Shown in pieces: positions 1,457 to 16,098 of a DNA stretch of 64,000 nucleotides. A model generated the notes under the pieces. It had not been told where the DNA came from and ran no database searches. It saw nothing but the letters and a program-made list of their open reading frames with translations. Numbering within the stretch: the stretch's first letter is position 1; each line of letters opens with the position of its first letter. The position numbers were made by a program, and so were the translations under genes. The DNA comes from Phycisphaerales bacterium (GTDB lineage Bacteria; Planctomycetota; Phycisphaerae; Phycisphaerales; UBA1924), in the NCBI GenBank assembly GCA_013360675.1, contig JABWBB010000004.1, positions 1 to 64,000 of the forward strand, in the 5' to 3' direction.

Positions 1457-1500
1457 GGGTGCCACCACGCGATGCGAAGACGCATTGGGTAGTGGCACCC
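1457..1500. repeat. 44-base imperfect palindrome (REP-like hairpin)
   Basis: GGGTGCCAC at 1457-1465 is the exact reverse complement of GTGGCACCC at 1492-1500. Inner arms ATGCG (1472-1476) and CGCAT (1481-1485) extend the stem around an AAGA loop. It sits alone between the MshEN-like gene and rimO. No U-tract follows, so a simple terminator is less likely than a REP-type element. I saw no second copy in the window. Confidence 0.6.
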
Positions 1501-1528
1501 GGTTCCGGAGCGATTGAGCCACCCTCCC

Positions 1529-1534
1529 TACGAT
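1529..1534 (+). promoter_or_regulatory. -10 element TACGAT next to the rimO start
   Basis: TACGAT is followed by five G residues and then the GTG start of rimO at 1540, the same layout as at several other genes here. The five Gs are too close to the start to act as a normal Shine-Dalgarno sequence. Confidence 0.4.
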
Positions 1535-1539
1535 GGGGG

Positions 1540-3153
1540 GTGACGAAAAAGACCCGCACAACCAAGCCCAAGGACGACGGGATTCATTCGATCTCGCTGG
1601 TCAGCCTGGGCTGTCCCAAGAACCTGGTGGACTCCGAGAAGATGCTCGGGCTCCTCGCCGAGGCGGGCCTCACGCCCGTCTCGTGCGACGCGGACTCATT
1701 CGGCGGGGCCGACGCGGTGGTCGTCAACACCTGTGGCTTTCTCGAAGCCTCGAAGGACGAGTCGCTGGGGGTCATCAAGGAGGCCATCGCCGCCAAGGAG
1801 CGGGGCGAACTCAAGCGGGTCGTCGTCGCGGGCTGCCTGGTGCAGCGTCACCGGGCCAAGATGCTTGAGTGGGCGCCGGGCATCGACGCGATGGTGGGGG
1901 TCTTTGATCGCGACAAGATCGTCGAGGCCGTCCGCGGCGGGGCCGAACGGACCACGCTCGACGGCGCGCCCGGGTACTGGATCTCGGGCAATGCGCTCAT
2001 CGCGGCGAAGGAGCGCGGGCGCAATGTCACGGGCCTGACCATCGGCGGCAAGAACGACACGGGCGTGGGCTACTTTGAGGACGACTCGGCCCGCCTGCGC
2101 CTCACGCCGCGCCATTACGCGTATTTGCGGGTGGGCGAGGGGTGCAACCAGAACTGCGCGTTCTGCACCATCCCGTCGATCCGGGGCAAGATGCGGAGCA
2201 AGCCCGTCGAGGCGATCGTGCGCGAGGCCAAGGAACTCATCGCCGACGGGGCCTTCGAGCTGATGCTCATCGGGCAGGACACGACAAGCTGGGGCGATGA
2301 CATCGGCAAGGGCATGGCGGCGGGGGCGGGGCTGCCCGCGATGCTCGAGGGCGTCTGCAACGCGATGGACGAGGAAGGCTGCCGCGGGTGGGTGAGACTG
2401 ATGTACGCCTATCCCAGCAACTTTTCCGACGCGATGATCGACGCCTTTGCCGGGCTGGTGTCGCGCGGGCGGCTGCTGCCGTATATCGATATCCCCCTGC
2501 AGCACGCCAGCGACGCGATGCTCACGAAGATGCGCCGCAACGTCACCCGGGCCAAGCAAGAGCACGTCATCACCCGCCTGCGCGAGCGCGTGCCGGGCAT
2601 GCGCATCCGCACCACGTTCATCAGCGGCTTCCCCGGGGAGACGCAGGCCGACCACCAGGAACTCCTCGAGTTCATCGAGAAGATGCGATTCGAGATGGTC
2701 GGGGTCTTCGAGTATTCCAAGGAAGACGGCACCCCCGCGGGTCGCATGGAAGAAGACGACGCCCTGCGCATCCCCGACGATGTCAAGGCCCAGCGGCGCA
2801 GCGAGGTCATGGAACTCCAGCAGCGCATCGCCTTCGAGCAGGCCGCCCACCTGGCGGGCGGGTTCGAGCGCGGCGGGCTGGCCAAGGCCACTCGCGCCGA
2901 CGTGCTCATCGACGCCAAAATGCGCACCAGCGGGCGCAAGACCTCGGGCGTGGGTGAGGGCGGGCGGCTTCACCTGGGTCGCACCAAGTGGCAGGCCCCC
3001 CAGATCGACGGCGTGACCTACATCCAGAGCCGCGAGCCCCTGGCCCCGGGCGAGCTTGTCCCCTGCGCCATCGTGGGGGCGGATGGGTACGACCTGGTCG
3101 CCACGCCCATCTCCGAGCTGTCGGGCGAAGTGAAACTCAAGGTCCTCAAGTAA
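1540..3153 (+). CDS. rimO: RimO, ribosomal protein S12 methylthiotransferase
   Basis: This radical-SAM methylthiotransferase adds a methylthio group to the conserved aspartate of ribosomal protein S12. The N-terminal UPF0004 domain opens with SLGCPKNLVDSEKM and contains NTCGF and AGCLVQR, whose cysteines bind one iron-sulfur cluster. The radical-SAM motif GEGCNQNCAFCTIPSIRGK (CxxxCxxC, residue about 200) binds the second. A TRAM domain ends the protein. At 537 residues it is longer than the usual roughly 440, mainly from an insertion between the first two domains and another near residues 255-280. I chose the GTG at 1540 because longer versions add a non-conserved N-terminus that crosses the upstream palindrome and the -10 element. 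Confidence 0.93.
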   Translation: MTKKTRTTKPKDDGIHSISLVSLGCPKNLVDSEKMLGLLAEAGLTPVSCDADSFGGADAVVVNTCGFLEASKDESLGVIKEAIAAKERGELKRVVVAGCLVQRHRAKMLEWAPGIDAMVGVFDRDKIVEAVRGGAERTTLDGAPGYWISGNALIAAKERGRNVTGLTIGGKNDTGVGYFEDDSARLRLTPRHYAYLRVGEGCNQNCAFCTIPSIRGKMRSKPVEAIVREAKELIADGAFELMLIGQDTTSWGDDIGKGMAAGAGLPAMLEGVCNAMDEEGCRGWVRLMYAYPSNFSDAMIDAFAGLVSRGRLLPYIDIPLQHASDAMLTKMRRNVTRAKQEHVITRLRERVPGMRIRTTFISGFPGETQADHQELLEFIEKMRFEMVGVFEYSKEDGTPAGRMEEDDALRIPDDVKAQRRSEVMELQQRIAFEQAAHLAGGFERGGLAKATRADVLIDAKMRTSGRKTSGVGEGGRLHLGRTKWQAPQIDGVTYIQSREPLAPGELVPCAIVGADGYDLVATPISELSGEVKLKVLK

Positions 3154-3244
3154 CCCCGGCCCTGATCCCGGCGTGGCACCTGATTCGGGGTCGGCGGCAG
3201 CGGAGCGGGTTCGTGGGGTGGACCTTCCAGCCGCGGACGGGGAA

Positions 3245-4501
3245 GTGCCGATACTCTTGCCCACCTTGATCCGATCGTGGCAGACCATCGCCCTGTGTGT
3301 CATCGCCCTGCTGGTGCTGGGGGTGGTGATGGTCAACTCGGCGGGGATGAGCGTGACGCCGGTGGGGGCCGACCGCCCCGAGGCCCCGCCCATCTCGGCC
3401 CGCACGATCCTGACCTCGCGCTCGACGGTGTACATGGCGCTGGCCCTGGCGGCGATGGCGGTCGCCGCCTGCCTCCCGATCCGGGCCTTGTCGTCGTGGG
3501 TGCAGGGCTTTGGGGGGCGGCGTGGGGAAGGGGCGCTCAAGCCGCTGCTGATCGTCGCCGGGGCCATCCTGGCGGTCTGCTGCCTGGTCTACCTGCCGGG
3601 CATCGGGAAAGAGGTCAACGGATCGCACCGCTGGCTGCGATTGCCGATCCCCCAGTTGGGGGATGCGCTCTCGGTGCAGCCCAGCGAGATCGCCAAGTGG
3701 GGTCTGGTGGGGCTGGTGGCCTGGTACGGGGCGGTGCGCCGCGAACGTCTGCCGGAGCTCCTGGGAGGTCTGCTCCCTGGCCTGGTGGCCATCGGCATGG
3801 TCAGCGTGGTCATCGTCAAGGAAGACCTGGGCACAGGCGTGCTGATCGCGACGGTCTGCTGCCTGATGCTGGCGGCGGCGGGGGCGTGGGGGCGTTGGTT
3901 CTGGCAGGCGCTGATCTTCGTGCCCCCGGCGTTGATCGGCGTGGTGCTGGCGGTGGTCACGAGCGACTATCGCACCAAGCGCATCCTGGCCTTCGTGAAC
4001 CCCTACGAGGACGCGCAGGGGATCGGCTATCACACGATCCAGTCGCTGGTCGCGGTGGCGGGGGGGGACATCTTCGGGCGCGGGCTGGGGCACGGGCTGC
4101 AGAAGTTCGCCTACCTGCCCGAGGACACCACCGATTTTCTCTTCGCGATCATCTGCGAGGAACTGGGCGTGCCCGGGGCGATGATCGTCGCCTCGCTCTT
4201 CGCGGGGATCGTCTGGTGCGGGATGACGATCGTGCGGGCCGAGCGCGACATGCTGCTGCGGCTGTGGGGCTTTGGCGTGATCGCCATGGTCGGGCTGCAG
4301 GCGGTCTTCAACCTCGCCGTCGTCACGGGGCTGGCCCCCACCAAGGGCATCGCCCTCCCGCTGCTCTCGTCGGGCGGGACGGGCTGGATCCTGACGGCGT
4401 TCTCGATCGGCATCGTCATCGCGATCGAGCGTTCGCGTGAAGCCGGCGTCGTCACCTCGCGCCTCGAGGCCCACACCGGGGCGGCGTCGGTCGCGGCATG
4501 A
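3245..4501 (+). CDS. ftsW: FtsW/SpoVE-type peptidoglycan glycosyltransferase
   Basis: This polytopic membrane protein of the SEDS family polymerises lipid II into glycan strands. About ten hydrophobic segments are visible. The conserved loop with VQPSEIAKWG, the KEDLGTGVL segment and the C-terminal LPLLSSGGTGW are SEDS hallmarks. It overlaps murG by four bases (ATGA) and is therefore probably translationally coupled to it. That pairing favours FtsW over RodA, which is encoded separately at 31195. The start is uncertain: GTG codons occur at 3173, 3218 and 3245 and a TTG at 3266. A GATACT hexamer at 3250-3255 would fit a start as late as 3266. An insertion of about 40 residues separates the first hydrophobic segments. 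Confidence 0.88.
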   Translation: MPILLPTLIRSWQTIALCVIALLVLGVVMVNSAGMSVTPVGADRPEAPPISARTILTSRSTVYMALALAAMAVAACLPIRALSSWVQGFGGRRGEGALKPLLIVAGAILAVCCLVYLPGIGKEVNGSHRWLRLPIPQLGDALSVQPSEIAKWGLVGLVAWYGAVRRERLPELLGGLLPGLVAIGMVSVVIVKEDLGTGVLIATVCCLMLAAAGAWGRWFWQALIFVPPALIGVVLAVVTSDYRTKRILAFVNPYEDAQGIGYHTIQSLVAVAGGDIFGRGLGHGLQKFAYLPEDTTDFLFAIICEELGVPGAMIVASLFAGIVWCGMTIVRAERDMLLRLWGFGVIAMVGLQAVFNLAVVTGLAPTKGIALPLLSSGGTGWILTAFSIGIVIAIERSREAGVVTSRLEAHTGAASVAA

Positions 4502-5628
4502 GCCCGTCGGACCTGAGCGTCATCTTCGCCGGGGGCGGCACGGGGGGGCACCTCTTCCCCGCGCTGGCCATCGCGCAGGCCCTGCACCGCACGCACCCGG
4601 GGGCACGCTCGATCTTTGTCTGTTCGCAGCGCCCGCTTGATGCACGCATCCTGGCGGGCGAGCGCATCGCCGAGCGCGAGATTGATTTTCGCCCGATCCC
4701 CGCGCAGCCGGTGGGGCTCTCGCCGCGCCGTTTGTTTGCATTCGTGCGCGGGTGGGGCGGGGCGGTGCGGGCCTCGCGAGCGATCATGGCAGAGGAGAAG
4801 GCCGCGGGTCGGGGCGTGGTAGTGGCGGCGATGGGGGGCTTTGTCGCCGCCCCCGCGGTGCGAGCGGCGGTACTCGAGGGGTGCCCGGCGGTGATGGTGA
4901 ACCTCGACGCGGTGCCGGGCAAGGCAAACCGATGGATTGCCAAGCGGGTGGATCGGGTGCTGACCGCGCTCCCGGTGAAGGGGCGCGAAGCGTGGCGGTG
5001 TGTGGGGCCGATCGTGCGCGAGGGGGCGGTGGCCCGTGACGGGGCGATGGCCTGTCGCGCGCGCCTGGGGCTTGATCCCGCGCGCCCGACGCTGCTGGTG
5101 ACGGGGGGTAGCCAGGGGGCGCAGACGATCAATCGATTGGTCACCGATCGTGCGCACGAGGGCGGCTTGTCGGGGTGGCAGGTGATCCACCAGGCCGGGG
5201 CGGGCGGGGCCGACGCCGTGCGTGCGGTTTATGAGCGTGCGGGCGTGGCGTGCGTGGTGGAAGAGTTCATCCGCGATATGGGAACGGCGTGGGGGGCGGC
5301 GGATCTGTGCGTCAGCCGCGCGGGCGCGGGGAGCGTGGCCGAAGCCTGGGCGAACCGGGTTCCGACGTTGTTCCTGCCGTATCCGTTCCATCGCGACGGG
5401 CATCAGGCGGCCAATGCGATGGTGCTGGTGAGGATGGGCGGCGCGGTACTGGCGACCGACCGGATCGACCCTGGGGCGAACACGCGGGTGGTGGCGCCGA
5501 TTCTGCAACGGCTGCTGGTGGATGCGGGGGAGCGTTCGCGAATGCGTGACGCGCTGGGGACGCCCGGACAGGCGTCAGGAGCCGCACAGGCGGCAGCGGC
5601 CCTGTGTGAATGCGTATTTCCCGCGTAG
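4498..5628 (+). CDS. murG: MurG, lipid II synthase (UDP-GlcNAc transferase)
   Basis: MurG adds GlcNAc to undecaprenyl-PP-MurNAc-pentapeptide on the inner face of the membrane, giving lipid II. The N-terminal glycine loop FAGGGTGGHLFPALAIA is diagnostic for the family. The second half contains VTGGSQGAQTIN and the donor-binding SRAGAGSVAEAWANRVP, followed by PYPFHRDGHQAANA with the conserved His and Gln. At 376 residues the length is normal. The ATG overlaps the ftsW stop, so lipid II synthesis and its polymerase are coupled. The usual dcw-cluster neighbours murD and murC are not adjacent, so only this pair remains together. Confidence 0.95.
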   Translation: MSPSDLSVIFAGGGTGGHLFPALAIAQALHRTHPGARSIFVCSQRPLDARILAGERIAEREIDFRPIPAQPVGLSPRRLFAFVRGWGGAVRASRAIMAEEKAAGRGVVVAAMGGFVAAPAVRAAVLEGCPAVMVNLDAVPGKANRWIAKRVDRVLTALPVKGREAWRCVGPIVREGAVARDGAMACRARLGLDPARPTLLVTGGSQGAQTINRLVTDRAHEGGLSGWQVIHQAGAGGADAVRAVYERAGVACVVEEFIRDMGTAWGAADLCVSRAGAGSVAEAWANRVPTLFLPYPFHRDGHQAANAMVLVRMGGAVLATDRIDPGANTRVVAPILQRLLVDAGERSRMRDALGTPGQASGAAQAAAALCECVFPA

Positions 5629-5658
5629 ATTTTGGACCCATCGGGGTCGTGCATTCTG

Positions 5659-5664
5659 TACACT
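5659..5664 (+). promoter_or_regulatory. -10 element TACACT, leaderless layout
   Basis: TACACT ends six bases before the ATG at 5671, and no Shine-Dalgarno sequence is present. A TTGGAC hexamer at 5632-5637 is possible as -35 but the spacer of 21 bases is long. Confidence 0.45.
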
Positions 5665-5670
5665 CTGGGT

Positions 5671-6207
5671 ATGACCGGCGGAGCCGATCGAACAGTGGCG
5701 AGGAGCGCGCGGTGCGTCGTGTGGCACGAGCGGGGGGGCGGGCTCGACCCGGACCTTGGCTCGACCCTGGCACGCATGCAGGGCTTTCGCGTCGTCCGCT
5801 GCGACAGCGACCTTCAGGCGTTTGCGCAGGTGTGCGCCGCGTCTCGCGCGGGCGAGCGCGTCACGCTGCTGCTCGTCGAGCCGTCGCGATTGACGGGCCT
5901 GAGCCACGCGCTGGCGGCGACCGCAACCTACACGCCTCAGGTGCAGATCTGGCGGTTCGAAGCGGGGGCGGCCAAAACTCTGGCGGCGTACACGTCCGTA
6001 CCGAAACCAGTCGCGACTGAGACGACTCCACCCACACGGTTGAAGATGCCCGCGGGGCCGCCGCGGCTTCGGCTGGCGGGCGAGGGGGCTAGCCCGAGCG
6101 TGCCGGCACCCGAGCCGGCCAACGATGAGGACGCGCCCCGCACGCCGCTGCTGACTGATGAGGAGCTGGCGATGCTGTTGGCCACCGACAAGGCCAAGCG
6201 AGGGTGA
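5671..6207 (+). CDS. Unknown protein, possibly a degenerate receiver-like domain
   Basis: This 178-residue protein matches no family I know. The first 100 residues alternate short hydrophobic strands (CVVWHE, FRVVRC, TLLLVEP, QVQIWRF) with helices, the rhythm of a response-regulator-like alpha/beta fold, but no phosphoacceptor aspartate set is evident. The rest is a Pro/Ala/Thr-rich linker and a short acidic helix ending LLTDEELAMLLATDKAKRG. It lies 88 bases ahead of a diguanylate cyclase whose own N-terminus has a similar pattern, so the two may work together (inference). The ATG at 5671 was chosen over an upstream codon because of the promoter element just before it. Confidence 0.6.
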   Translation: MTGGADRTVARSARCVVWHERGGGLDPDLGSTLARMQGFRVVRCDSDLQAFAQVCAASRAGERVTLLLVEPSRLTGLSHALAATATYTPQVQIWRFEAGAAKTLAAYTSVPKPVATETTPPTRLKMPAGPPRLRLAGEGASPSVPAPEPANDEDAPRTPLLTDEELAMLLATDKAKRG

Positions 6208-6295
6208 GCGTTCTCGGACGTGGAGATCGGCGGAAGGGCGATGTCGGGCCAACGATGAACCCGGATCGGGTCGAACTACTAGGAGTAGGTGCGTA

Positions 6296-7657
6296 GTGAA
6301 CGGATCGGAGGCACGTCGCCGGGTGAACGACGCCACGGACAGGCTCGATTTGCGCGTGATCCTCGTCGGTCGGACGGGGCTGGACGCGGCATTGCGCCTG
6401 GACCCGGGGATCGATCTTGCGCGCGCGGGCACGCCGATGGAGGCCATCGGCGAGTTGTCCAGCCCGCTCTCGTCGGATTCGCCCGCCAGCACGCTGGTGA
6501 TCGTCGGGGTCGAGGTACAGAGAGAAATGGCCGCCGCGGGGGCGACGCGCCTGGTCGAGTTCATCGGGGGCCTGCGCACGGTGGACCCTGGCGTGCGCGT
6601 GCTGCGCATGGCGGGCCCTGGCACGGGTGGCGGCGTGACCATCGGAGCGGATCTGTATGACGGGATGATCGAGCCGGGGGCGAGTGCGGCGGCGGTGCGT
6701 GAGATGACCCGCGCCCGAGGGCCTATCCAGTCGGTGATCGCCGAGCCGCTGCAGGGGCCGCGCACGGATGAGGGGCTTGAAGAGCTGCTCGCGGGCGGCG
6801 CTGCCGCACCACGACCGAATGCGACCGACGAGCGCACGACCGGGGACTTGGTGCCGGTGACGCTGGTGCTGCGCGGGCAGGACCCGCAGGCGGCGTGTGT
6901 GGCGCTGATCCGTTCTCGCCTGGGCGACCCATCGATCGAGTTCATCGCGGGCGATGCCGGGAATGCGTCGTGTGCGCCCGTGGCGTGGGAATCGCAGTGC
7001 TATGGGCATCTGCGATCTTCACGAACCAACGCCGCGCTGCTGGCGCCCCATGCCCGCTGGATGGCCGCCTGGATGAGGCTGTGCGATCAACAGTCGCAGT
7101 TGCGAGATGCGGCGTTCACCGATTCGCTGACGGGGGCGAAGAACCGCCGCTATTTCGACGGGTTCCTGGCGCGGGTGCTCGAGCAGGCGCGCGAGGCTCG
7201 GCGCAGCGTGACGGTGATGGTCTTCGACATCGACGATTTCAAGAAATACAACGACAAGTACGGGCACGACGCGGGGGACGAGATCTTGCGCGAGGCCGTG
7301 CGCCTGATGCGCAGTGTGATCCGCCCCTCGGACTGCGTCTGCCGCATCGGCGGGGATGAGTTTGGCGTGATCTTCAACGAGCCCGAGGGTCCGCGCCAGG
7401 AGGGCTCGCGCCCGCCGTCGGATGTCTTCGGGCTGGCGCAGCGCTTCCAGCAGCAGATCTCGGCGCACCGCTTCCCCAAGCTCGCCGACCTCGCGCCGGG
7501 CACGCTGACGATCTCGGGCGGGCTGGCGACCTTCCCGTGGGACGGCACAACCCCAGAGCAGCTTGTCTCGCGGGCCGACCAGCTCGCCATGCAGAGCAAG
7601 CGCCAGGGAAAGAACGCCATCACGGTTGGCCCGGGCGCGCTCCGCGGCGGGCGTTAA
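6296..7657 (+). CDS. Diguanylate cyclase with an unrecognised sensor domain
   Basis: The C-terminal GGDEF domain (about residues 265-450) makes cyclic di-GMP from two GTP. It has DSLTGAKNRRYF, VFDIDDFKKYNDKYGHDAGD and the active-site loop RIGGDEFG. An RPSD sequence lies five residues before that loop, in the position of the RxxD inhibitory site, so product feedback is likely. The first 250 residues look like a degenerate receiver-type alpha/beta domain (LRVILVGRTG, STLVIVGVEV, VRVLRM) plus a linker region. No membrane segment is visible, so the enzyme should be cytoplasmic. The GTG start at 6296 has AGGAG about ten bases upstream. The gene follows an unknown protein with a similar N-terminal pattern. 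Confidence 0.88.
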   Translation: MNGSEARRRVNDATDRLDLRVILVGRTGLDAALRLDPGIDLARAGTPMEAIGELSSPLSSDSPASTLVIVGVEVQREMAAAGATRLVEFIGGLRTVDPGVRVLRMAGPGTGGGVTIGADLYDGMIEPGASAAAVREMTRARGPIQSVIAEPLQGPRTDEGLEELLAGGAAAPRPNATDERTTGDLVPVTLVLRGQDPQAACVALIRSRLGDPSIEFIAGDAGNASCAPVAWESQCYGHLRSSRTNAALLAPHARWMAAWMRLCDQQSQLRDAAFTDSLTGAKNRRYFDGFLARVLEQAREARRSVTVMVFDIDDFKKYNDKYGHDAGDEILREAVRLMRSVIRPSDCVCRIGGDEFGVIFNEPEGPRQEGSRPPSDVFGLAQRFQQQISAHRFPKLADLAPGTLTISGGLATFPWDGTTPEQLVSRADQLAMQSKRQGKNAITVGPGALRGGR

Positions 7658-7669
7658 GACCTCTCGTGC

Positions 7670-7675
7670 TACCCT
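7670..7675 (+). promoter_or_regulatory. -10 element TACCCT, leaderless layout
   Basis: TACCCT ends six bases before the GTG at 7682. The intervening GCGAGC contains no ribosome-binding sequence. Confidence 0.45.
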
Positions 7676-7681
7676 GCGAGC

Positions 7682-8575
7682 GTGGCGCGACGTTATGACA
7701 TGCTGGTGCTCGATCTCGACGGGACAGTACTCGACCCGGCGGGGGTGGTGACGCCGCGCACGCGCGACGCCGTCCAGCAGGCTCGCGACGCGGGAATGCG
7801 CGTGACGCTCTGCACGGGGCGCGGCCTGGTCGAGGCCCGCCCGGCGGTCGTGGCCCTGAACCAGCAAGACCCGGTGATCGTGGCGGGGGGGTCGATCATC
7901 GCCTGCCCGGCGACGCGGCGCACGCTCCACCGCTTTGCGCTCGACCTGTCCCTGGTATCGCGCGCGGTCGAACGATTGCTCGCGCACGACCACCCCGCGA
8001 TGGTGCTCAAAGACCCCGTCGCCGCGGGGTATGACTATCTGATCGTGCGCGGCCCGCGGGGTCTGCGCCTCGACCCGGTGACGGACTGGTGGTTCGACCA
8101 CCTCAACGTCAGCGTGCGCTACGTCGACCACCTCGACGACGACGAGCACCCCGAGCACACGGTGCGGGTGGGGGCGTGCGGCCTGTCGGGGCGGATGGCG
8201 ACGGTGCGCGACGCGCTGCACGAGGCCTGCGGGCGCGAATCGCTGATCCACCACTTCCCCGCGGTGATTGCCCCCGAGCACGCCGGGCGGGCAATCAACG
8301 GGCAGACCATCGACGTGCTCGAACTCTTCCACCTGAGCGCGAACAAGTGGGAGAGCGTGCGCGTGCTGGCGGAGGGGTGGAAGATCCCCCCTGCCCGCAT
8401 CTGCGCCATCGGCGACCAGGTGAACGATGTGTCGATGATCGAGCAGGCGGGGCTTGGCATCGCCATGGGCAACGCGATCGAGCCCGTGCGCAAGGCAGCG
8501 AAGCGGCACACGAAGCGCAACGACGAGGACGGCGTGGCGCACGCGATCGAGCAGGTGCTCGGCGGCCACTGGTGA
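7682..8575 (+). CDS. HAD-superfamily phosphatase, Cof/YbiV type
   Basis: This 297-residue cytoplasmic hydrolase has the HAD nucleophile motif DLDGTVLD near the N-terminus, motif II in TLCTGRG, and motif IV in GDQVNDVSMIEQAG followed by GIAMGNA. The large middle insert (about residues 85-200) is the C2-type cap seen in Cof-type sugar and nucleotide phosphatases. The substrate cannot be read from the sequence. The GTG start is preceded by a leaderless-type promoter. The gene converges tail to tail, four bases apart, with a pseudopilin gene on the other strand. Confidence 0.88.
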   Translation: MARRYDMLVLDLDGTVLDPAGVVTPRTRDAVQQARDAGMRVTLCTGRGLVEARPAVVALNQQDPVIVAGGSIIACPATRRTLHRFALDLSLVSRAVERLLAHDHPAMVLKDPVAAGYDYLIVRGPRGLRLDPVTDWWFDHLNVSVRYVDHLDDDEHPEHTVRVGACGLSGRMATVRDALHEACGRESLIHHFPAVIAPEHAGRAINGQTIDVLELFHLSANKWESVRVLAEGWKIPPARICAIGDQVNDVSMIEQAGLGIAMGNAIEPVRKAAKRHTKRNDEDGVAHAIEQVLGGHW

Positions 8576-8579
8576 ACGT

Positions 8580-9356
8580 TTATCGCCGATCTCGGCCTCG
8601 CACTCCCCACTCGGTTGTGCCGTAGGGAGTCTGGCCCCAATACGAACTGCGGGCGACGGCGGGCAGAGCATCACGCGGGAACATGGGAACAGCGTGCCCG
8701 TCAATGAACCAGACGCTCCCGGGTGAAGAAGACTCGCGATAGTCGAGTGTGCCGACGGGCAGACCCGGGGCCGCGTATCCGCGATGGCCATGCCAGACGT
8801 CGGCCTCGAAGAGCCCGGCCTTGGCATCAGGGAAGACAACGGAAGAAACGCGTTGGATCCTCGCGCCGAGTTGCTGGCCCATTAGTTCGGACGAAAAGCG
8901 CGGATCGAGGTATTCCGGGCGGACAAAGAGCGAGGCCGAAAGCCAACGGTCCACCGGGTAGTCCCACCCCTGCTGGCGGGCGGGCGTGTTGGCGGGGCAG
9001 CGGTAGATCGGGGACGTGCCGGCGACGCCGCTGGTATCGCGCCACATGTCGCTCGTCAGAAGCCTGAATAACTGGTTGGCATATCGCAGCCGGTCGCGCT
9101 GAGTGATTAGCAAGGACGGATCATCGCTACGCGTGGCGGGGAAGGAGTCCCTTGCGTCCATTGTGTAGAGCAGCACGCATCGACCAAGTTCATGCACCCG
9201 CGAAAGGCAGGCGAGCTCGATGCTCTTCTGGCGGCTCTTGGCGATCGAGGGCAGGGCGAGCCCCACCAGCACGAGGATCAGGCCAAGCACGATGACTAGT
9301 TCCGGGAGCGAGAACGCACGGGATTCCCACAAGGGTTGTTGGGCGGGACTTGACAT
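8580..9356 (-). CDS. Type II/IV pseudopilin with DG-type C-terminus
   Basis: This 258-residue protein has a prepilin-type N-terminus: a short charged leader, then AFSLPELVIVLGLILVLVGLALP, cut here to its core FSLPELVIVLG. The expected prepilin peptidase site lies just before the Phe, although the preceding residue is Ala rather than the usual Gly. The helix would insert into the inner membrane and assemble into a pilus-like fibre. The C-terminal VWFIDGHA matches the DG end of planctomycete pilin-like proteins. It is divergent from the cysteine-rich secreted protein at 9414, and the intergenic region holds AT-rich promoter elements for both. Confidence 0.85.
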   Translation of the reverse strand: MSSPAQQPLWESRAFSLPELVIVLGLILVLVGLALPSIAKSRQKSIELACLSRVHELGRCVLLYTMDARDSFPATRSDDPSLLITQRDRLRYANQLFRLLTSDMWRDTSGVAGTSPIYRCPANTPARQQGWDYPVDRWLSASLFVRPEYLDPRFSSELMGQQLGARIQRVSSVVFPDAKAGLFEADVWHGHRGYAAPGLPVGTLDYRESSSPGSVWFIDGHAVPMFPRDALPAVARSSYWGQTPYGTTEWGVRGRDRR

Positions 9357-9379
9357 AGCGTTTTTTTTTGGCGTATATT
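9350..9379 (+). promoter_or_regulatory. Near-consensus sigma-70 promoter TTGACA-N18-TATATT
   Basis: TTGACA at 9350-9355 and TATATT at 9374-9379 are separated by 18 bases. This is the closest match to the housekeeping consensus I found in the window. The -35 overlaps the start codon of the divergent pseudopilin, and a run of nine T lies in the spacer. On the other strand TAATAT (9375-9380) could serve the pseudopilin. Confidence 0.7.
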
Positions 9380-9388
9380 ACTCTTGTT

Positions 9389-9400
9389 TACTCGTGAGTA
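9389..9400. promoter_or_regulatory. Palindrome TACTCGTGAGTA at the predicted start site, candidate operator
   Basis: TACTC and GAGTA form an inverted repeat with a two-base centre, placed about ten bases after the -10 hexamer and just before the AGGAG ribosome-binding site (9400-9404). A further TACTC occurs at 9379-9383. A repressor bound here would block transcription of the gene at 9414. This is inference from position and symmetry. Confidence 0.4.
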
Positions 9401-9413
9401 GGAGTTCGGAATC

Positions 9414-9806
9414 ATGAATATGTGGCGATGCGCATTATGGGCAGGAATCACAGCCGTGACAACCATCGTATATGGCCAGAACTCAGAACCCATGTGCAAC
9501 CGGACGTTGCAAACCACGCCGGGCCAGCACCCCAGCCTGGTCGGCGGTGGATGTACGGACGATCAACCCTGCGGCCTGGCCGTGTACTGTGAACAGAGCC
9601 ACGTCTGCGGGTACGTGCCTCCGGGCGAGGGTTTGCTCTCCTGTGGCACGTATTCAACTGTGACATATACCTGTTCTGTGTACGACAATGGGATATGCAA
9701 GGACAACTACTGCTATCGGAGCGAAGGCAGCGAGCAGGTCTATCCTGATCCGCCGATTCAGACCGTAGTTGGTCGCTATACGGGTCCTCAGGAGTGCGCC
9801 GAGTGA
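9414..9806 (+). CDS. Small secreted cysteine-rich protein, unknown function
   Basis: This 130-residue protein starts with a signal peptide (hydrophobic core ALWAGITAVTTIVYG). The mature part has ten cysteines in about 105 residues, with spacings such as CTDDQPC, CEQSHVC and CKDNYC. That even number fits a disulfide-bonded extracytoplasmic domain. I do not recognise the family; the pattern is loosely reminiscent of small cysteine-knot-like repeats. AGGAG lies nine bases before the ATG and a near-consensus promoter lies further upstream. It overlaps the next gene by 13 bases, so the two are probably made together. Its base composition is visibly less GC-rich than the neighbours, which may indicate recent acquisition. 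Confidence 0.7.
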   Translation: MNMWRCALWAGITAVTTIVYGQNSEPMCNRTLQTTPGQHPSLVGGGCTDDQPCGLAVYCEQSHVCGYVPPGEGLLSCGTYSTVTYTCSVYDNGICKDNYCYRSEGSEQVYPDPPIQTVVGRYTGPQECAE

Positions 9807-10843
9807 TTGTTCGACCATGGGTGTGGGCACTGATCACGAGCGTGTTCGGCCTGCGTGCGGGCTTCGCACCCGGGGCGCCGCCCGGGATGAACGAGATCCT
9901 CGATTGGGCAACCACCTACGACGCGACGCGTGCGGTACGGGTGATTTGGTGCGTTCAGGCCGGGGGCGGTGATGGGACGTATCAGGCGGACCTTGAAGAA
10001 GTGACGCTCCGGCGACCGCACGGGATGCTGCGGGCCGAGTATCGCTATGTCGTGCGTGAGAAGTTCCCCGAGGGGGACATCGCCTCGCGCGTGATGGATC
10101 TCCGATTTATGCACCCCGAGGTCATGCCGTCGTTGATCAACGACGGTGTCGGTGGGGAGATGTATCAACAGACGCAGGCCGGGTGGACGCAGATCATGGA
10201 GTTGAAGCGCCCCTCGTGGGCCGGGGCGCATGAACTGGCGCGCGGGAGATCCTGGCCGGGTTATGTCGGCTGGTGGATTCTCGATCATCCGAGAGACCTT
10301 GCGCGGGCGAAGCACGAATCCGTGGATGTAACGACGAGCCGGGTGACCTTTGTGGATGTGCCCTTCGCGCTCGAGTTCCGTCGGGACGCCGAATGCGGCA
10401 TCGTCGTCCACCGGATTGATCAGTTGGCCGCGGATCGGTCGCGGGTGAGTCAATCCACCCTGTGTGAGGACTATCAGAAGCAAGGTGAGGGCGTGGGGCC
10501 GATGCCGAGGCGCCGGGTGTTGCTGTGCGACTTTGGTGACCTTCCCGGGCGTGAGCCGGGGTTGCAGTCCGCGGGTGTGCGTCACTTTGGCGCGATCGAG
10601 GCGTTCGAGGATCTGCCCGACGACGCGTTCGATCTCGTGAAGATTACGGGGCTGACGGTCGGAACAGAACCGCCCCCGAGGGGCGAGCCGGGACGTGTGC
10701 TCATGACGCCGGACCGTTCGCCCGCGGGCGCTCCGGTGCACGCCGTTTCCACGGTTGGTTTGAGCCCCGTGATCGTCGCGGGGGGTGGGGTCCTGGTCAT
10801 TGCGGGCGTGGTGCTTCTGGCGCGTCGCTCGGCGGCCCGTTGA
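9794..10843 (+). CDS. Secreted protein with C-terminal hydrophobic anchor, unknown function
   Basis: This 349-residue protein has an N-terminal signal peptide (RPWVWALITSVFGLRAGFA), a largely hydrophilic middle with no motif I know, and a C-terminal helix GGGVLVIAGVVLLARR followed by a short basic tail. That tail arrangement resembles sorting signals (PEP-CTERM, GlyGly-CTERM), although no PEP triplet is present. An exosortase is encoded at 61562-62494 in this window. The GTG start overlaps the end of the cysteine-rich gene in another frame. The pair looks like an exported complex at the cell surface, but no function can be assigned. Confidence 0.65.
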   Translation: MRRVIVRPWVWALITSVFGLRAGFAPGAPPGMNEILDWATTYDATRAVRVIWCVQAGGGDGTYQADLEEVTLRRPHGMLRAEYRYVVREKFPEGDIASRVMDLRFMHPEVMPSLINDGVGGEMYQQTQAGWTQIMELKRPSWAGAHELARGRSWPGYVGWWILDHPRDLARAKHESVDVTTSRVTFVDVPFALEFRRDAECGIVVHRIDQLAADRSRVSQSTLCEDYQKQGEGVGPMPRRRVLLCDFGDLPGREPGLQSAGVRHFGAIEAFEDLPDDAFDLVKITGLTVGTEPPPRGEPGRVLMTPDRSPAGAPVHAVSTVGLSPVIVAGGGVLVIAGVVLLARRSAAR

Positions 10844-10846
10844 AGG

Positions 10847-10871
10847 GGGGCGGGCGCATTCGCAACGCCCC
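10847..10871. terminator. GC-rich hairpin between convergent genes
   Basis: GGGGCG (10847-10852) pairs with CGCCCC (10866-10871) in the 31-base gap between two convergent genes. There is no U-tract, so termination activity is uncertain. Confidence 0.3.
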
Positions 10872-10874
10872 GCG

Positions 10875-12812
10875 TCAGTGCGCGCCCTCGGTCACCCGCA
10901 GGACTTCCTGCACGCTTGTGAGCCCGCTGGCGACCTTGCGCATCCCGTCCTGGCGCAGCGTGACCATGCCGCGCTCGATGCACAGGCGCCGGAACTCGGC
11001 GACGTTGGGGTTGCGGGCGATCATGTCGCGCAGCTGGTCATCGACCGCGAGCATCTCGTAGATGCCCACGCGACCGCTGTAGCCGGTGTTGCGGCATTTG
11101 TCGCAGCCCTTGGCCACCCACACCTCGTCGGCGTCGATGCCGTGCACCGTGAGAAACTCGCCCAGCTCGTCGGTGGCGGGCTGCTGCGCCTTGCAGTGGG
11201 CGCACAGGCGGCGGATCAGGCGCTGGGCCAGCACGGCGTTGACCGCCGCCCCCACCAGGAAGGGCTCGAGCCCGATGTTCACCAGGCGGGTGATGCTCGC
11301 GGGGGCGTCGTTGGTGTGCAGCGTGCTGAGCACCAGGTGCCCGGTCAGGGCGGCCTGGACGGCGATGTGCGCCGTCTCGTGGTCGCGGATTTCGCCCAGC
11401 ATGATCACGTCCGGGTCCTGTCGCAGCAGCGAGCGCAGGGCCGCGGCGAACGACATGCCGATCTTGTCGTGCACCTGGGTCTGGGTGATCCCGTCGAGGT
11501 GATACTCGACGGGGTCCTCGACCGTCGAGATATTCATCGAGTTCTTGTCGAGCTGGCGCAGCGAGGCGTAGAGCGTGGTGGTCTTACCCGAACCGGTGGG
11601 GCCCGTGACAAGGATGATCCCGTGGGGCGAATCGATCTGCTTGCGCCAGATCGTGAAGGTCTGCTCGTCGAAGCCCAGCTGCTCGAGCTCGACGCTGATG
11701 GCCCGCTGATCGAGGATGCGCATCACGACTTTTTCGCCCGAGGCCGTGGGAAGGGTCGAGACGCGCAGATCGAGCTTGCGCCCGTTGACCTGGGCCCGGA
11801 TGCGACCGTCCTGGGGCAGGCGGCGTTCGGAGATGTCCAGGTTGGCCATGATCTTGATGCGCGAGGTGATCGCCGCGGCCATCGAGGCGGGCGGGTTCAT
11901 CATCTCGAAGAGTTCGCCGTCGATGCGGAAGCGGACCTTGAGCTTCTTCTCGGCGGGCTCGATGTGGATATCGCTGGCGCCTTCCTTGCTGGCCGACTGG
12001 ATGATGTAGTTGACGTAGCGGATGACCGGGCTCTCGCCGGCCTCCTTGGCCAGGTCGACTTCTTCGGCGCGGGATTTCTCGACGGTGACGTCGCCCTCTT
12101 CGACCTCGGAGAGGATGCGGGAGACGTCCATGTCTTCCTCGCCCTTGACGTTGGCGCCGATCATCTCGAGCGCTCCGCGCACGTCGTAGGCGGGCACCAT
12201 GACGAGTTTCACACCCGGCACGTTGAGAGCGGCGCGGACCTCGTCGACGATGAAGACGTTGTCGGCCTGCGTCGTGCCGATGACGACGCGCGAGCCCTCC
12301 TGGCGGAGTGGCACGACCATGTGGCGCTTGCAGAACTCGGGGGTGAGGCGTTGGAGCAGTTTGCCGTCGAAGCCCCCATCGAGGCCCTTCTCGAGGTTGA
12401 TGCGCTCGAAGGCGATGCCACCGGCCTCGGCCAGGGCTTCGTGCACGGCGATCTCGTCGACGCCCTGCTCGATGAGCACGTCCTGGAGTTTTCGTCCGGG
12501 CGACTGCCGGATCACCTGCTGTGCGTTGGTGATGCGGTCGGGCGTGACGACCCCGCGTGCGAGCAGCACGTCGGTGAAGGTGCCGCCGCGCCGGACTTCG
12601 ATCGCGTTGTCCTGCGGGCGATAGACCTCGGCGATGCCCATGGGGCCCGCGGGAGAAGAGTCTTTGGGTGTGCCCTGGTTGCCCGGGGCCTGGGGGATGG
12701 GCGAGAGGGGAGCCTCGGCCTCGTCGACGCGGTGCTTCTTCGCGGGCGCGGGGGTCCGCGGCGCGTCCACGCCCAGCTCGTTGAGAATGTCGTCGATGTT
12801 GTACTTGGGCAT
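10875..12812 (-). CDS. PilB/GspE-type assembly ATPase
   Basis: This 645-residue hexameric ATPase powers pilin assembly or type II secretion from the cytoplasmic side. An MshEN-like N-terminal domain (about residues 55-200) precedes the secretion ATPase core. The core has Walker A GPTGSGKTTTLYASL near residue 400, an Asp box, Walker B with VIMLGEIRDHETA, and a His box. Near residues 535-575 two Cys pairs (CAHC and CDKC) form the zinc-binding element usual for this family. The start at MPKYNIDDIL was chosen because the longer reading adds an atypical Arg/Ser-rich segment. It is the last gene of the pilMNO block, so it probably serves the type IV pilus-like machine. PilT and PilC are not in the window. 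Confidence 0.92.
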   Translation of the reverse strand: MPKYNIDDILNELGVDAPRTPAPAKKHRVDEAEAPLSPIPQAPGNQGTPKDSSPAGPMGIAEVYRPQDNAIEVRRGGTFTDVLLARGVVTPDRITNAQQVIRQSPGRKLQDVLIEQGVDEIAVHEALAEAGGIAFERINLEKGLDGGFDGKLLQRLTPEFCKRHMVVPLRQEGSRVVIGTTQADNVFIVDEVRAALNVPGVKLVMVPAYDVRGALEMIGANVKGEEDMDVSRILSEVEEGDVTVEKSRAEEVDLAKEAGESPVIRYVNYIIQSASKEGASDIHIEPAEKKLKVRFRIDGELFEMMNPPASMAAAITSRIKIMANLDISERRLPQDGRIRAQVNGRKLDLRVSTLPTASGEKVVMRILDQRAISVELEQLGFDEQTFTIWRKQIDSPHGIILVTGPTGSGKTTTLYASLRQLDKNSMNISTVEDPVEYHLDGITQTQVHDKIGMSFAAALRSLLRQDPDVIMLGEIRDHETAHIAVQAALTGHLVLSTLHTNDAPASITRLVNIGLEPFLVGAAVNAVLAQRLIRRLCAHCKAQQPATDELGEFLTVHGIDADEVWVAKGCDKCRNTGYSGRVGIYEMLAVDDQLRDMIARNPNVAEFRRLCIERGMVTLRQDGMRKVASGLTSVQEVLRVTEGAH

Positions 12813-12837
12813 GGGCGGCTCTTGATGGAGGGGTCGG

Positions 12838-13521
12838 TCAGCGCTTGTTGGGCACGCCGATCTTGACGGGCGAACGCTTGGGCCCTTCACGGTTCTCCGA
12901 ATCCATGGTGAGCGTGAAGGCCATGGCATCGGCGACCAGCACGACCTGGCGGCCCTTGATCGACTCGACCGTGAACTCCTCGTCGACGATCGAGCCCACG
13001 CGGATGGTCGAGCCGTTGATCCGCGCCAGGGGCGTGCGCCCGTCCATCACGGACTGGAGCTTGAGGCTCTCGGCGCGCATCTGCAGCTCGGCGCGGCGCT
13101 GCTCGCGGGCGCGGGCCCGGCGTTCCTCGTCCGAGGGGCCGATGCTCGCGGGCAGCCCGCTCGCGGCGATCTTGGTGGTCTCCGTGTCGAGCATGAAGGG
13201 GCTCTTGCGGAACTCGCCGATGGCCACGTCGAGGGGGCGCTGCACGCGCGCCAGATCGGCCATGATCCGCTCGTAGGAGCGGGCCTTGGCGTCGTCGTTG
13301 GAGGGCAGCTCGGGCGTGGTGGCGGCGAAGGTCATGCCCGCCTTCATCCCAAACTGGCGCATGCCCCACAGGGCCAGCACGCTTACGCCCAGCACCGTGG
13401 CGCAGGTGAGCGCCTGCGCCGGGAGCCGACGCTTGGGCTTGGTGACGAGCGAGGGGGGCGTGCCCAGGGCGGGCGTGCCCAGCGGGTCGGTGGTCGAGGC
13501 TTGCTCGAAGGGCTGATTCAT
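12838..13521 (-). CDS. Unknown membrane-anchored pilus-operon protein (PilP/GspC position)
   Basis: This 227-residue protein lies between pilO and the pilB homologue. It has a short cytoplasmic arm, one membrane helix (ALTCATVLGVSVLALWGM) and a periplasmic part. That part has an Arg/Glu-rich coiled segment (EERRARAREQRRAELQMR) and a final beta-rich domain (TIRVGSIVDEEFTVESIKG). The layout of one helix plus a small C-terminal beta domain recalls PilP or GspC, which link inner-membrane and outer-membrane parts of pilus and secretion machines. Sequence similarity to them is not clear to me, so the role is inferred from position and architecture. Confidence 0.7.
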   Translation of the reverse strand: MNQPFEQASTTDPLGTPALGTPPSLVTKPKRRLPAQALTCATVLGVSVLALWGMRQFGMKAGMTFAATTPELPSNDDAKARSYERIMADLARVQRPLDVAIGEFRKSPFMLDTETTKIAASGLPASIGPSDEERRARAREQRRAELQMRAESLKLQSVMDGRTPLARINGSTIRVGSIVDEEFTVESIKGRQVVLVADAMAFTLTMDSENREGPKRSPVKIGVPNKR

Positions 13522-13522
13522 T

Positions 13523-14080
13523 TCACTTCTCCTCCGCGCTGGCGACGCGCTTCTCGTCCTGGAAGTAGATGCTCAGCGTGAACTGGGCCTGGAGCTCCGC
13601 CTCGTCCTTGAGCAGGCCCGTGAGCTTCATGTCGTGGATCCGCGTGATGCGCGGGAGTTTCTCGACCGCGGCGACGAACGAGAAGAAGCCCACGAAGTTG
13701 CCCATCACCTCGAGCTCGAGGGGCTGCTCCATGTAGAGGGCCGCGGGCACCGGGCGCGACGACTTGATCGCCGGGGCCTTGAGCCCGCTGGCCAGGGCCA
13801 GGTCCGAGACCTGGCGCACGAGCGCGTCGATCTCCTTGGTGCTGGGCAGGCGGGCCTCGATGATCTTGACCCCGCGCCGAATCTCCTCGTTGGCCTTGGC
13901 CAGGTCGGCGTTGCGGGCGGTCTCCTCGCGCAGCTTGATCAGCAGCGATTCCTTGTGCTGCAGGTCGTTCTTCGCCCGTTCGATCTCGCGGTTTTGCGGG
14001 CGGAAGACGAGGTAGTAGCTGGCCACGGGCATGCCCACGACGATGCCCACGATGACGAGGCCCTGAAATCCGGTGCGCAT
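13523..14080 (-). CDS. pilO: PilO-like inner-membrane assembly protein
   Basis: This 185-residue bitopic protein has one N-terminal membrane helix (GLVIVGIVVGMPVASYYLVF), a coiled coil (about residues 30-75) and a small ferredoxin-like periplasmic domain. This is the PilO plan. The segment LEVMGNFVGFFSFVAAVEKLPRI is the characteristic stretch of that domain; its core is GNFVGFFSFVAAVEKL. PilO dimerises with PilN and positions the alignment complex of type IV pili. It is one base from pilN and the downstream gene, so the cluster is clearly an operon. Confidence 0.88.
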   Translation of the reverse strand: MRTGFQGLVIVGIVVGMPVASYYLVFRPQNREIERAKNDLQHKESLLIKLREETARNADLAKANEEIRRGVKIIEARLPSTKEIDALVRQVSDLALASGLKAPAIKSSRPVPAALYMEQPLELEVMGNFVGFFSFVAAVEKLPRITRIHDMKLTGLLKDEAELQAQFTLSIYFQDEKRVASAEEK

Positions 14081-14081
14081 G

Positions 14082-14894
14082 TCACTGTCCCTCCCGCACG
14101 CCGGCGATCGTGCCCGGCGTGTTGGTCTTGGCCTGGTCGCGTTGCGCCTTGTCGGCGACGAGCGTGGTGAGCGACGTGGCGACGTCGCGGGAATCCACGT
14201 TGTCGCGCAGGGCGCACGTGATCTCGAACTTGCGGAGCAGACGATCGCTCTCGCGCGATTCGCGGATGAAACCCAGTTCCACCCGGTCGAAGATCGGGCT
14301 GCTCTTGAGGCTGGCCAGGAAGTCGGCGATGTCGTTGTTCTCTTCCGCCGTCCCGCCCACCGTCAGGGCATACTCGAATCGCGGGGCGGTGACCTTGGGA
14401 AGTTCGGCGGGCGCGGCGGCCTTATCGCCCGTCACCTTCTTGGTCAGCGACTTGATGGCCGGGGCGGGCGCCGCGGGGGCGGCCTTCACCTCGACCCGCG
14501 TGCTCTTGAGCTTGACCTCGTCCAGTCGCATCCGGTCGCTCATCCGCAGGGCGATCTCACCCAACATGGCCCAGCGCGGCACGCGCTCGATCAGGGCCGC
14601 GGTGATCTCGGCCTTCTCGAGCATCGAGGCCCGCTGCGCTTCCAGCGCCTTGAGCTGCTCGATCTTCTGCGTCTCGGCGACGTACATCTCGTTCACTTCG
14701 GTCTGGCGGGCCTTGAGGGCCTGCCAACGGTGGTGCGTGACGAAGAACGCCGCCACCACCGCGCCCAGCACGATCAGGAAGAGCGAGAGCGTGATGAGGT
14801 TGGCCCTCGTGTCGGCCTTGGCCGCGATGTAGTCCTCGGGGAGGAAGCTGCCCGAAGTGGGGGGCGGCGCGAGCGAACGAAGTGAGTTGCTCAT
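14082..14894 (-). CDS. pilN: PilN-like inner-membrane assembly protein
   Basis: This 270-residue protein has a short cytoplasmic N-terminus, one membrane helix (ITLSLFLIVLGAVVAAFFV), a coiled coil and a C-terminal periplasmic domain. In PilN the cytoplasmic segment docks into PilM. The canonical INLLP motif is not obvious, though FLPEDYIAAK lies where the docking peptide should be. A Lys/Ala/Pro-rich insertion occupies about residues 135-165. It sits between pilM and pilO in the usual order, which supports the call. Confidence 0.85.
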   Translation of the reverse strand: MSNSLRSLAPPPTSGSFLPEDYIAAKADTRANLITLSLFLIVLGAVVAAFFVTHHRWQALKARQTEVNEMYVAETQKIEQLKALEAQRASMLEKAEITAALIERVPRWAMLGEIALRMSDRMRLDEVKLKSTRVEVKAAPAAPAPAIKSLTKKVTGDKAAAPAELPKVTAPRFEYALTVGGTAEENNDIADFLASLKSSPIFDRVELGFIRESRESDRLLRKFEITCALRDNVDSRDVATSLTTLVADKAQRDQAKTNTPGTIAGVREGQ

Positions 14895-14907: not shown

Positions 14908-16098
14908 TTACAGGTCCGTCGGGCTCAGGCAAACACCCAGCGGCACCGTCCAGCCGGGCTGTGATTGACGCAGGTCCACCCCGGTGCAGGGCTCGCTGCC
15001 GGTCCGAACGATGGCGGCCATGGGGTCGGCGATCTGGGCGGGCAGTCGCAGCACGTGGGCGATGTGGCGGCACAAACCCTTGCGCCTCGCCTCACCACCG
15101 ATGAAGACCACCCGTCGCACCGACTGCCCGGGCGATTGCGCCCCGTGATGGCGCAGGCTCAGCAGAATCTCGTCGGTCAGGATTTCCAGCGGTTCGCTCA
15201 GATCGGCGCTGGATGGGCCCACCTCGCTCTGCTCGGCCGACAGCTCCGCGCCAAAGCCCGATGCCGCGGCGCCCATCGCGACGGGCTGGGGGGTGTCCAC
15301 GCGGGTGCGCATCGCCAGCGCCTCGGCGCGCGACACGCCAAGCTGCGAAGCGACGGCTTCGTCCAGGTGTCGGCCGCCGATGTCGATCCGCCTCGCAAAG
15401 ACCAGCTTCGTTCCCTGCGCGATCATCAGGTTGGTCGAGCCCGCCCCCACGTCAAGGAAGAGCGTGGCCTGCGTCGGGTCCGCGGCGTGCTTGAGCACGG
15501 GCTCGAAGGCCCGAAGCGTGGCGGCGTATTCGCCGTGCATGCCCACGGGCACGAGCTTCGCGCCCACGATTGCGCCCATCAGACGATCGACCAGCTCGCG
15601 GGTCACCGAAAGCACCAGCACATCGGCCCGGGCGGGCGTGCCGGCGCCCGTCTCGATGCTGCGATACACCAGCGTGGCGGGGTCCTGCCCGAGTTGCACC
15701 GAGATCGCCGCCTCGACCTGCGAAGCCAGCGACTGTCCCTCCACGCGGTTGATCTGCAGCGGCTTGTACGACGTGGCCCAGGCCGGGATGGCGCACGCGG
15801 CGCGCTTTCCCTTGAACCCGCCCTGCTTCACGATCTTCGCCAGGGCCTCGAACTGGAACATCAGGCGACGTTCGGGGTCGTTGAGCAGGTGCTCGGGCGT
15901 ATCGACCCGCGCCGCGGCGATCAGCGACGGGGGATTGCCTTCTTCGAGCTGAAGCAGTTTGAGCGAGCCGACCCCGAAATCAACCCCGATCGGGAACCCG
16001 ATCCCCGGCACGAGCCCGAAGGGGCTGGCCACCGACGCGGACAGACGGCTGCCAAGCCGCCCGAGCGTCGAGAACTTACGAAGTGACTGGAGTCCCAT
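14908..16098 (-). CDS. pilM: PilM, actin-like cytoplasmic pilus assembly protein
   Basis: This 396-residue protein has the actin/FtsA-like ATP-binding fold of PilM. The first phosphate loop is in IGVDFGVGSLKLLQL, and the second in LFLDVGAGSTNLMIAQG. The adenosine-binding region near the end is VVFIGGEARRKGL. PilM forms the cytoplasmic ring component that binds PilN and transmits the state of the assembly ATPase. The middle is lengthened by a variable stretch near residues 275-305. It is the first gene of the block pilM-pilN-pilO-unknown-pilB, all on the minus strand. Confidence 0.92.
   Translation of the reverse strand: MGLQSLRKFSTLGRLGSRLSASVASPFGLVPGIGFPIGVDFGVGSLKLLQLEEGNPPSLIAAARVDTPEHLLNDPERRLMFQFEALAKIVKQGGFKGKRAACAIPAWATSYKPLQINRVEGQSLASQVEAAISVQLGQDPATLVYRSIETGAGTPARADVLVLSVTRELVDRLMGAIVGAKLVPVGMHGEYAATLRAFEPVLKHAADPTQATLFLDVGAGSTNLMIAQGTKLVFARRIDIGGRHLDEAVASQLGVSRAEALAMRTRVDTPQPVAMGAAASGFGAELSAEQSEVGPSSADLSEPLEILTDEILLSLRHHGAQSPGQSVRRVVFIGGEARRKGLCRHIAHVLRLPAQIADPMAAIVRTGSEPCTGVDLRQSQPGWTVPLGVCLSPTDL

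Follow-up and report, generated by a model that had tools for sequence, protein, structure and literature searches.

Repeat-driven phase variation has been studied mostly in host-adapted pathogens and commensals. The closest described counterparts of the locus reported here carry a repeat in a promoter region. In Neisseria, according to PMC5320596, the length of a poly-C tract between the −10 and −35 elements of fetA alters expression, and a title cited in that paper states that promoter spacing alters expression of the meningococcal class 1 protein. In Haemophilus influenzae, PMC2651432 describes a repeat in the promoter region of the divergent pilus genes hifA and hifB, which is proposed to alter −10/−35 spacing. 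For Planctomycetes, no phase-variable switch of this type was recognisable from the titles of matching papers in the open-licence full-text literature, a collection that leaves subscription papers mostly outside; no paper in it paired phase variation with a Phycisphaer- name, and none was recognisable by title among the matches listed for the broader phase-variation literature. Here we describe a locus in a 64,000-nucleotide stretch of DNA (hereafter the window; positions 1–64,000 of contig JABWBB010000004.1, Phycisphaerales assembly GCA_013360675.1). We propose, with a probability of roughly three in four, that it is a contingency (phase-variable) cassette in which a slipped-strand promoter controls a pilus-associated, disulfide-rich surface module.

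The promoter at this locus consists of TTGACA (9350–9355, plus strand), which overlaps the start codon of a divergent pilin gene, an 18-nt spacer and TATATT (9374–9379), matching the consensus at 11 of 12 positions. The preliminary description had called it near-consensus. TTGACA-N16-19-TATATT occurs once in the whole 2.92 Mb genome, at this promoter (backward control, 0). Half of the spacer is a run of nine consecutive T (9361–9369), a homopolymer of at least 8 nt between the −35 and the −10, which we propose as the slippage switch. It is the sole run of at least nine in the window, where the four other runs of at least eight are all G8 or C8. An AGGAG ribosome-binding site (9400–9404) lies ahead of the first gene, as previously stated, and the dip in GC reported around 9360–9800 was also recovered (0.56 at 9250–9749, 0.57–0.62 immediately beside it, and 0.63–0.73 elsewhere within 6000–14500). 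The palindrome placed by the same description at the start site is present (TACTC-GT-GAGTA, 9389–9400), but it is weak and imperfect, with arms of 5 bases. Because it was not seen by eye in orthologous promoters it is probably due to chance, and we rejected it as an operator. On the minus strand, a candidate pilin promoter (TTGTCA-17-CATAAT, 9434–9462, identified purely by its 10/12 consensus match) lies inside the first gene. The T tract is not bidirectional by a test for TTGACA on both strands, and no pilin promoter that would have it as spacer was recognisable; the pilin therefore need not follow when the two plus-strand genes switch.

The first gene (9414–9806, plus strand) encodes an exported protein of 130 amino acids with ten cysteines after residue 20, in agreement with the earlier count. 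The second ORF (9794–10843, plus strand) overlaps it; the more likely start is a GTG at 9803, which creates a GTGA start/stop overlap and has AGGAG 8 nt ahead of it. The N-termini of both proteins are signal-like, and the second protein ends in a transmembrane helix with a basic tail (10763–10840). Neither protein matched Pfam or NCBIfam at E values up to 1, and neither had a sequence homologue among 60 relatives at E ≤ 0.01. No usable AlphaFold model of the Cys-rich protein was obtained (pLDDT 41). The model of the anchored protein, of modest confidence (pLDDT 54), has a LolA/LolB-like predicted fold. Its best matches were a LolA-like domain and a DUF1329 protein (Z = 9.0 and 8.8), LolB and LolA entries followed at Z = 8.2, and the best 22 matches were all LolA-like, LolB, DUF1329 or RseB entries; Foldseek paired the model with a LolA superfamily protein (E = 4.1e-4). 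Thus, as far as a model of this quality can indicate, the anchored protein probably adopts a LolA-like half-barrel fold. LolA/LolB/RseB-type proteins share the predicted fold, to which the window protein adds its C-terminal transmembrane anchor.

The divergent gene (8580–9356, minus strand) encodes a pseudopilin in which Cys50, Cys120, a DGH motif and a C-terminal GRD are invariant among seven aligned sequences. Its scores lie below the cut-offs of TIGR02532 (15.9 versus 16.3) and Pfam N_methyl (14.3 versus 21.2), and two of four scanned orthologues pass the TIGR02532 cut-off. The product is prepilin-like, its own TIGR02532 score falling just short. One flank of the cassette carries a HAD hydrolase gene, beyond which lie genes of the MurG and FtsW types; the other carries a minus-strand operon encoding a PilB/GspE-type assembly ATPase that adjoins the cassette (10875–12929), a T2SSB-like protein (12838–13521, below cut-off), PilO (13523–14080), PilN (14082–14894) and a PilM-like protein (14908–16098, below cut-off). 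Loci L036 and L037 and the window (1459–9356) share a radical SAM/FtsW/MurG neighbourhood but differ in where the cassette sits in it, which might reflect a local, possibly transposition-like, move. Elsewhere in the window, a protein encoded on the plus strand (37633–39171) gave a match far below cut-off to the anti-phage protein model NF053860 (78 bits versus 370).

Because the Cys-rich and anchored pair had no sequence homologues, we compared the pilin neighbourhood instead. Six full-length pilin orthologues (35–39% identity) were found in 60 family genomes, seven pilin loci among the named genomes, which are largely the same assemblies, and orthologues in 22 of 400 order genomes, the window's own included (profile E ≤ 1e-25). 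In 22 of 31 orthologous loci, window included, the pilin gene has beside it a gene for a small, exported, Cys-rich protein and, next in order, one for a protein that ends in a transmembrane helix and basic tail, versus 1 of 20 control loci (Fisher p = 2e-6 in a heuristic test with the same geometry for both sets). Controls were loci of weakly related pilins with full flanks; the single positive was L247, and another, L258, lies 1 kb from a G-tract promoter. The expectation of a small exported system whose genes stay together was thus supported. Most loci have the divergent arrangement, whereas the genes point the same way in L036, L037, L078, L087 and L095; some loci add a MauE gene. The Cys-rich protein has positional equivalents in relatives, and even positional equivalents of the LolA-like anchored protein share 14–20% identity with that of the window. 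Sequence comparison thus indicates that both proteins are fast-evolving in a conserved neighbourhood.

Tracts recur at the orthologous promoters, with changes of base. A script looking for a run of at least 8 nt between a TTGACA-like −35 and a TANNNT −10 scored 23 of the 31 loci and found a spacer homopolymer in 14 of the 31, with runs of 8–13 nt in the best −35/−10 pair; the base was G in ten, C in two, A in one and T in one, the window. Competing −10 choices would give spacers of 16 or 21 nt at L083 and 14 or 21 nt at L035. L089 is a weak fifteenth case, recognised by eye (G15, −10 TATACA, spacer 24 nt). Seven of the 31 loci (L037, L078, L081, L085, L086, L088 and L092) have ordinary 17–18 nt spacers with no tract, and eight others either lack a recognisable −35 or −10 around their tract, carry it at the end of a contig, have a run below the length threshold, or could not be resolved. 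Switching is therefore not universal among these loci. At L087, a C12 tract directly follows the ATG of the Cys-rich gene, out of frame, and could be a coding-sequence (translational) version of the switch. The L087 pilin is sister to the window pilin (support 95/88) in a tree whose long branches leave parts unsure and which does not include L092 and L095 (omitted on purpose), L081, L085, L086, L088 and L098 (where the script found no suitable ORF) or L094 (not labelled). The switch may thus have changed both place and base between relatives.

Across the family, the pattern TTGACA-N0-10-G8-N0-6-TA gave 138 raw matches in 64 of 163 genomes, about nine of them (by eye) overlapping repeats, versus 7 matches for the backward pattern and 3, in 3 genomes, when TTGACA was moved 30–40 nt away. 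The corresponding C pattern gave 37 matches in 25 genomes (control, 1), and the T9 pattern 4 matches (control, 1) in 4 of the 163 genomes, that of the window among them. When the phylum was sampled more broadly, the G pattern matched in 39 of 392 genomes, many with singletons (backward control, 7 matches); the design is therefore commonest near the home family and not confined to it. For downstream analyses we used 80 hand-picked regions with G sites, and at 79 sites took the first TANNNT after the tract as the −10. Total spacer length averaged 17.2 nt (sd 2.6, range 11–22), with 59% at 16–19 nt. Tract length and the length of the remaining spacer were negatively correlated (r = −0.39); random pairing gave an sd of 3.36, and a proportion of 0.0005 of shuffles was as narrow as the observed distribution. 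This compensation indicates that the tracts sit in working promoters. The spread of spacers is what slipping would leave in a population, and decayed promoters would fit it too. Eight pairs of aligned promoters, all from genomes other than the window's and not all independent (three come from one promoter trio), had flanks that matched at 78–100%; five differed in tract length by 1–3 nt, and one of these pairs combined G9 and G12 with 90 of 90 identical flanking bases. No comparable pair turned up for the window promoter.

Six sites, among which two in genome G036 are tandem copies, carry TTGACA on both strands around one shared tract, as do two weaker ones. In L135, L096, L185, L186 and L204, one homopolymer spaces two opposite TTGACA promoters with equal spacers (18–20 nt). 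In G036, a single contig of 3.6 Mb, the G-tract promoter pattern has twelve raw matches, and some of these form nearly identical tandem pairs.

Among first genes after G-tract promoters, 67 of 83 were signal-peptide-like (background ORFs, 67 of 251) and 27 of 83 were Cys-rich (background, 13 of 251), with crude predictors applied to the 80 regions and a mechanically drawn background. A classification of ORFs by amino-acid signature over-calls Cys-rich ORFs and was not used for claims. Of the 80 regions, 39 were matched by a pilin or MauE profile. MauE and pilin are fused in eight ORFs; four fusions were scanned with Pfam, and all four passed the MauE cut-off and two the N_methyl cut-off. In all seven cases scanned, the fourth gene or the N-terminal part of a fused pilin matched MauE (PF07291) above cut-off (E = 1.2e-6 to 7.8e-21). 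In methylamine utilisation, MauE serves the maturation of a disulfide-rich subunit; the proteins here belong to the same family and differ in the fusion to a prepilin in those eight ORFs. The window's own genome contains two further G tracts, L130 (G18) and L131 (G12), and downstream of each lie genes for a Cys-rich protein, a membrane-anchored protein and a MauE-pilin fusion. In both fusions the MauE domain is followed by a prepilin-like part, which terminates one or two residues after a GRD. No clear TANNNT −10 was seen at the G18 site.

By analogy with Neisseria fetA/porA and Haemophilus hifA/hifB, slipped-strand change of the spacer seems the most economical account of these tracts. The homopolymer could instead be a fixed promoter element, whether a structural spacer or the site of a tract-binding regulator, with its length maintained and the genes under normal regulation; a tract that does not mutate could still set the geometry of the promoter or be bound by a protein. 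The strong tie between tracts and promoters, the centring of spacers near 17 nt and the equal tract lengths in three of the eight aligned pairs all suit a fixed element, and the rarity of T tracts (4 of 163 genomes) also counts against a switch. However, we consider a fixed element unlikely, given that G, C, T and A are all found at orthologous sites, that tracts range from 8 to 18 nt and spacers from 11 to 24 nt, that tract length differs between promoters with identical flanks, and that the tract of one orthologue lies in coding sequence, out of frame. A further objection to the switch is that homopolymer lengths in metagenome assemblies can be wrong. Taken to its extreme, this would make the whole pattern an artefact of assembly or sequencing, biologically meaningless; most of the genomes are draft assemblies in many contigs, and in L038, L149, L189, L199 and L200 contigs end at or near the tract. 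Yet errors cannot put tracts downstream of TTGACA (138 matches versus 7 and 3) or upstream of exported genes, and the tracts hold in single-contig assemblies (chromosome record CP053450.1; G036, 12 raw matches), although their exact lengths are uncertain. We therefore regard an artefact as very improbable.

Equally improbable in our estimation is the view taken in the preliminary description, of a constitutive surface pair whose second protein is sorted by exosortase. The signal peptide, C-terminal helix, basic tail and strong promoter are consistent with it, and the gene overlap, hydrophobic helix and basic tail that it reported are all present. However, no PEP-CTERM or other sorting-signal model in NCBIfam or Pfam matched the anchored protein at E values up to 1, and alignments of six to seven anchored proteins, inspected by eye, revealed no shared motif before the helix; the transmembrane helix with its basic tail was all they had in common. 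The view also leaves the tract unexplained. What stands of it is a co-occurring exported system; exosortase handling finds no support, and the homopolymer in the spacer had been overlooked.

We therefore return to the slipped-strand promoter. Mispairing within the homopolymer between the −35 and the −10 would shift the spacer one base at a time, so that a sigma-70-type promoter would move between near-optimal spacing of 16–19 nt (ON) and poor spacing (OFF or low). In the ON state it would drive the exported, disulfide-rich small protein and its membrane-anchored, LolA-like partner. The linked pilin could be assembled by the adjacent PilB/PilMNO machine; in the window only the Cys-rich and anchored pair would be switched, and the pilin may use its own promoter. 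Other copies add a redox membrane protein of the MauE type, in some cases as a fusion with the pilin, which may form the disulfides. Together these components would make up a stochastically displayed surface or pilus-tip complex. We favour a disulfide-rich, pilus-associated surface complex whose display would be varied, probably for escape from phages or grazers or for switching of attachment.

Measured against the known systems, the mechanism would be of a familiar kind; what looks new is the gene module, together with the phylum and the scale. The hif fimbriae are of the chaperone-usher type. The six sites with one tract between opposite TTGACA elements, and the two weaker ones, resemble the hifA/hifB arrangement; in contrast to it, the repeat here is a homopolymer and not a TA repeat, the proteins are unrelated and include a type IV-like prepilin, and the window tract is not among the bidirectional ones. 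The likeness to Neisseria porA/fetA, as described in PMC5320596, is a homopolymer in the promoter. Unlike those genes, the sites described here are in Planctomycetota, recur across a family, stand ahead of Cys-rich/LolA-like/pilin/MauE cassettes, and have tracts not only of G but also of T, C or A.

The wider proposal, for which we judge the chances to be even, is that this family of Planctomycetota has a phasome, in which a genome would hold as many as about twelve promoters that slip independently of one another. Many of these would control a disulfide-rich surface module that diverges rapidly and draws on a single set of parts (a Cys-rich exported protein, a LolA-like membrane anchor, a GRD-ending prepilin and a MauE redox partner, which is joined to the pilin in some cases). 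Some tracts would be two-way switches for divergent genes, and in orthologues the ON/OFF logic would have moved between promoter and coding sequence. The combination of a tract and TTGACA would offer a handle by which disulfide-rich pilus modules of a new, MauE-linked class could be found. If our reading is true, populations of free-living planctomycetes would be mixed at their surface, probably as protection against phages or grazers, and a family-wide promoter set in environmental planctomycetes would show stochastic surface switching to be a strategy outside hosts as well, and would indicate which surface molecules of an uncultured group may be targets of phages or grazers.
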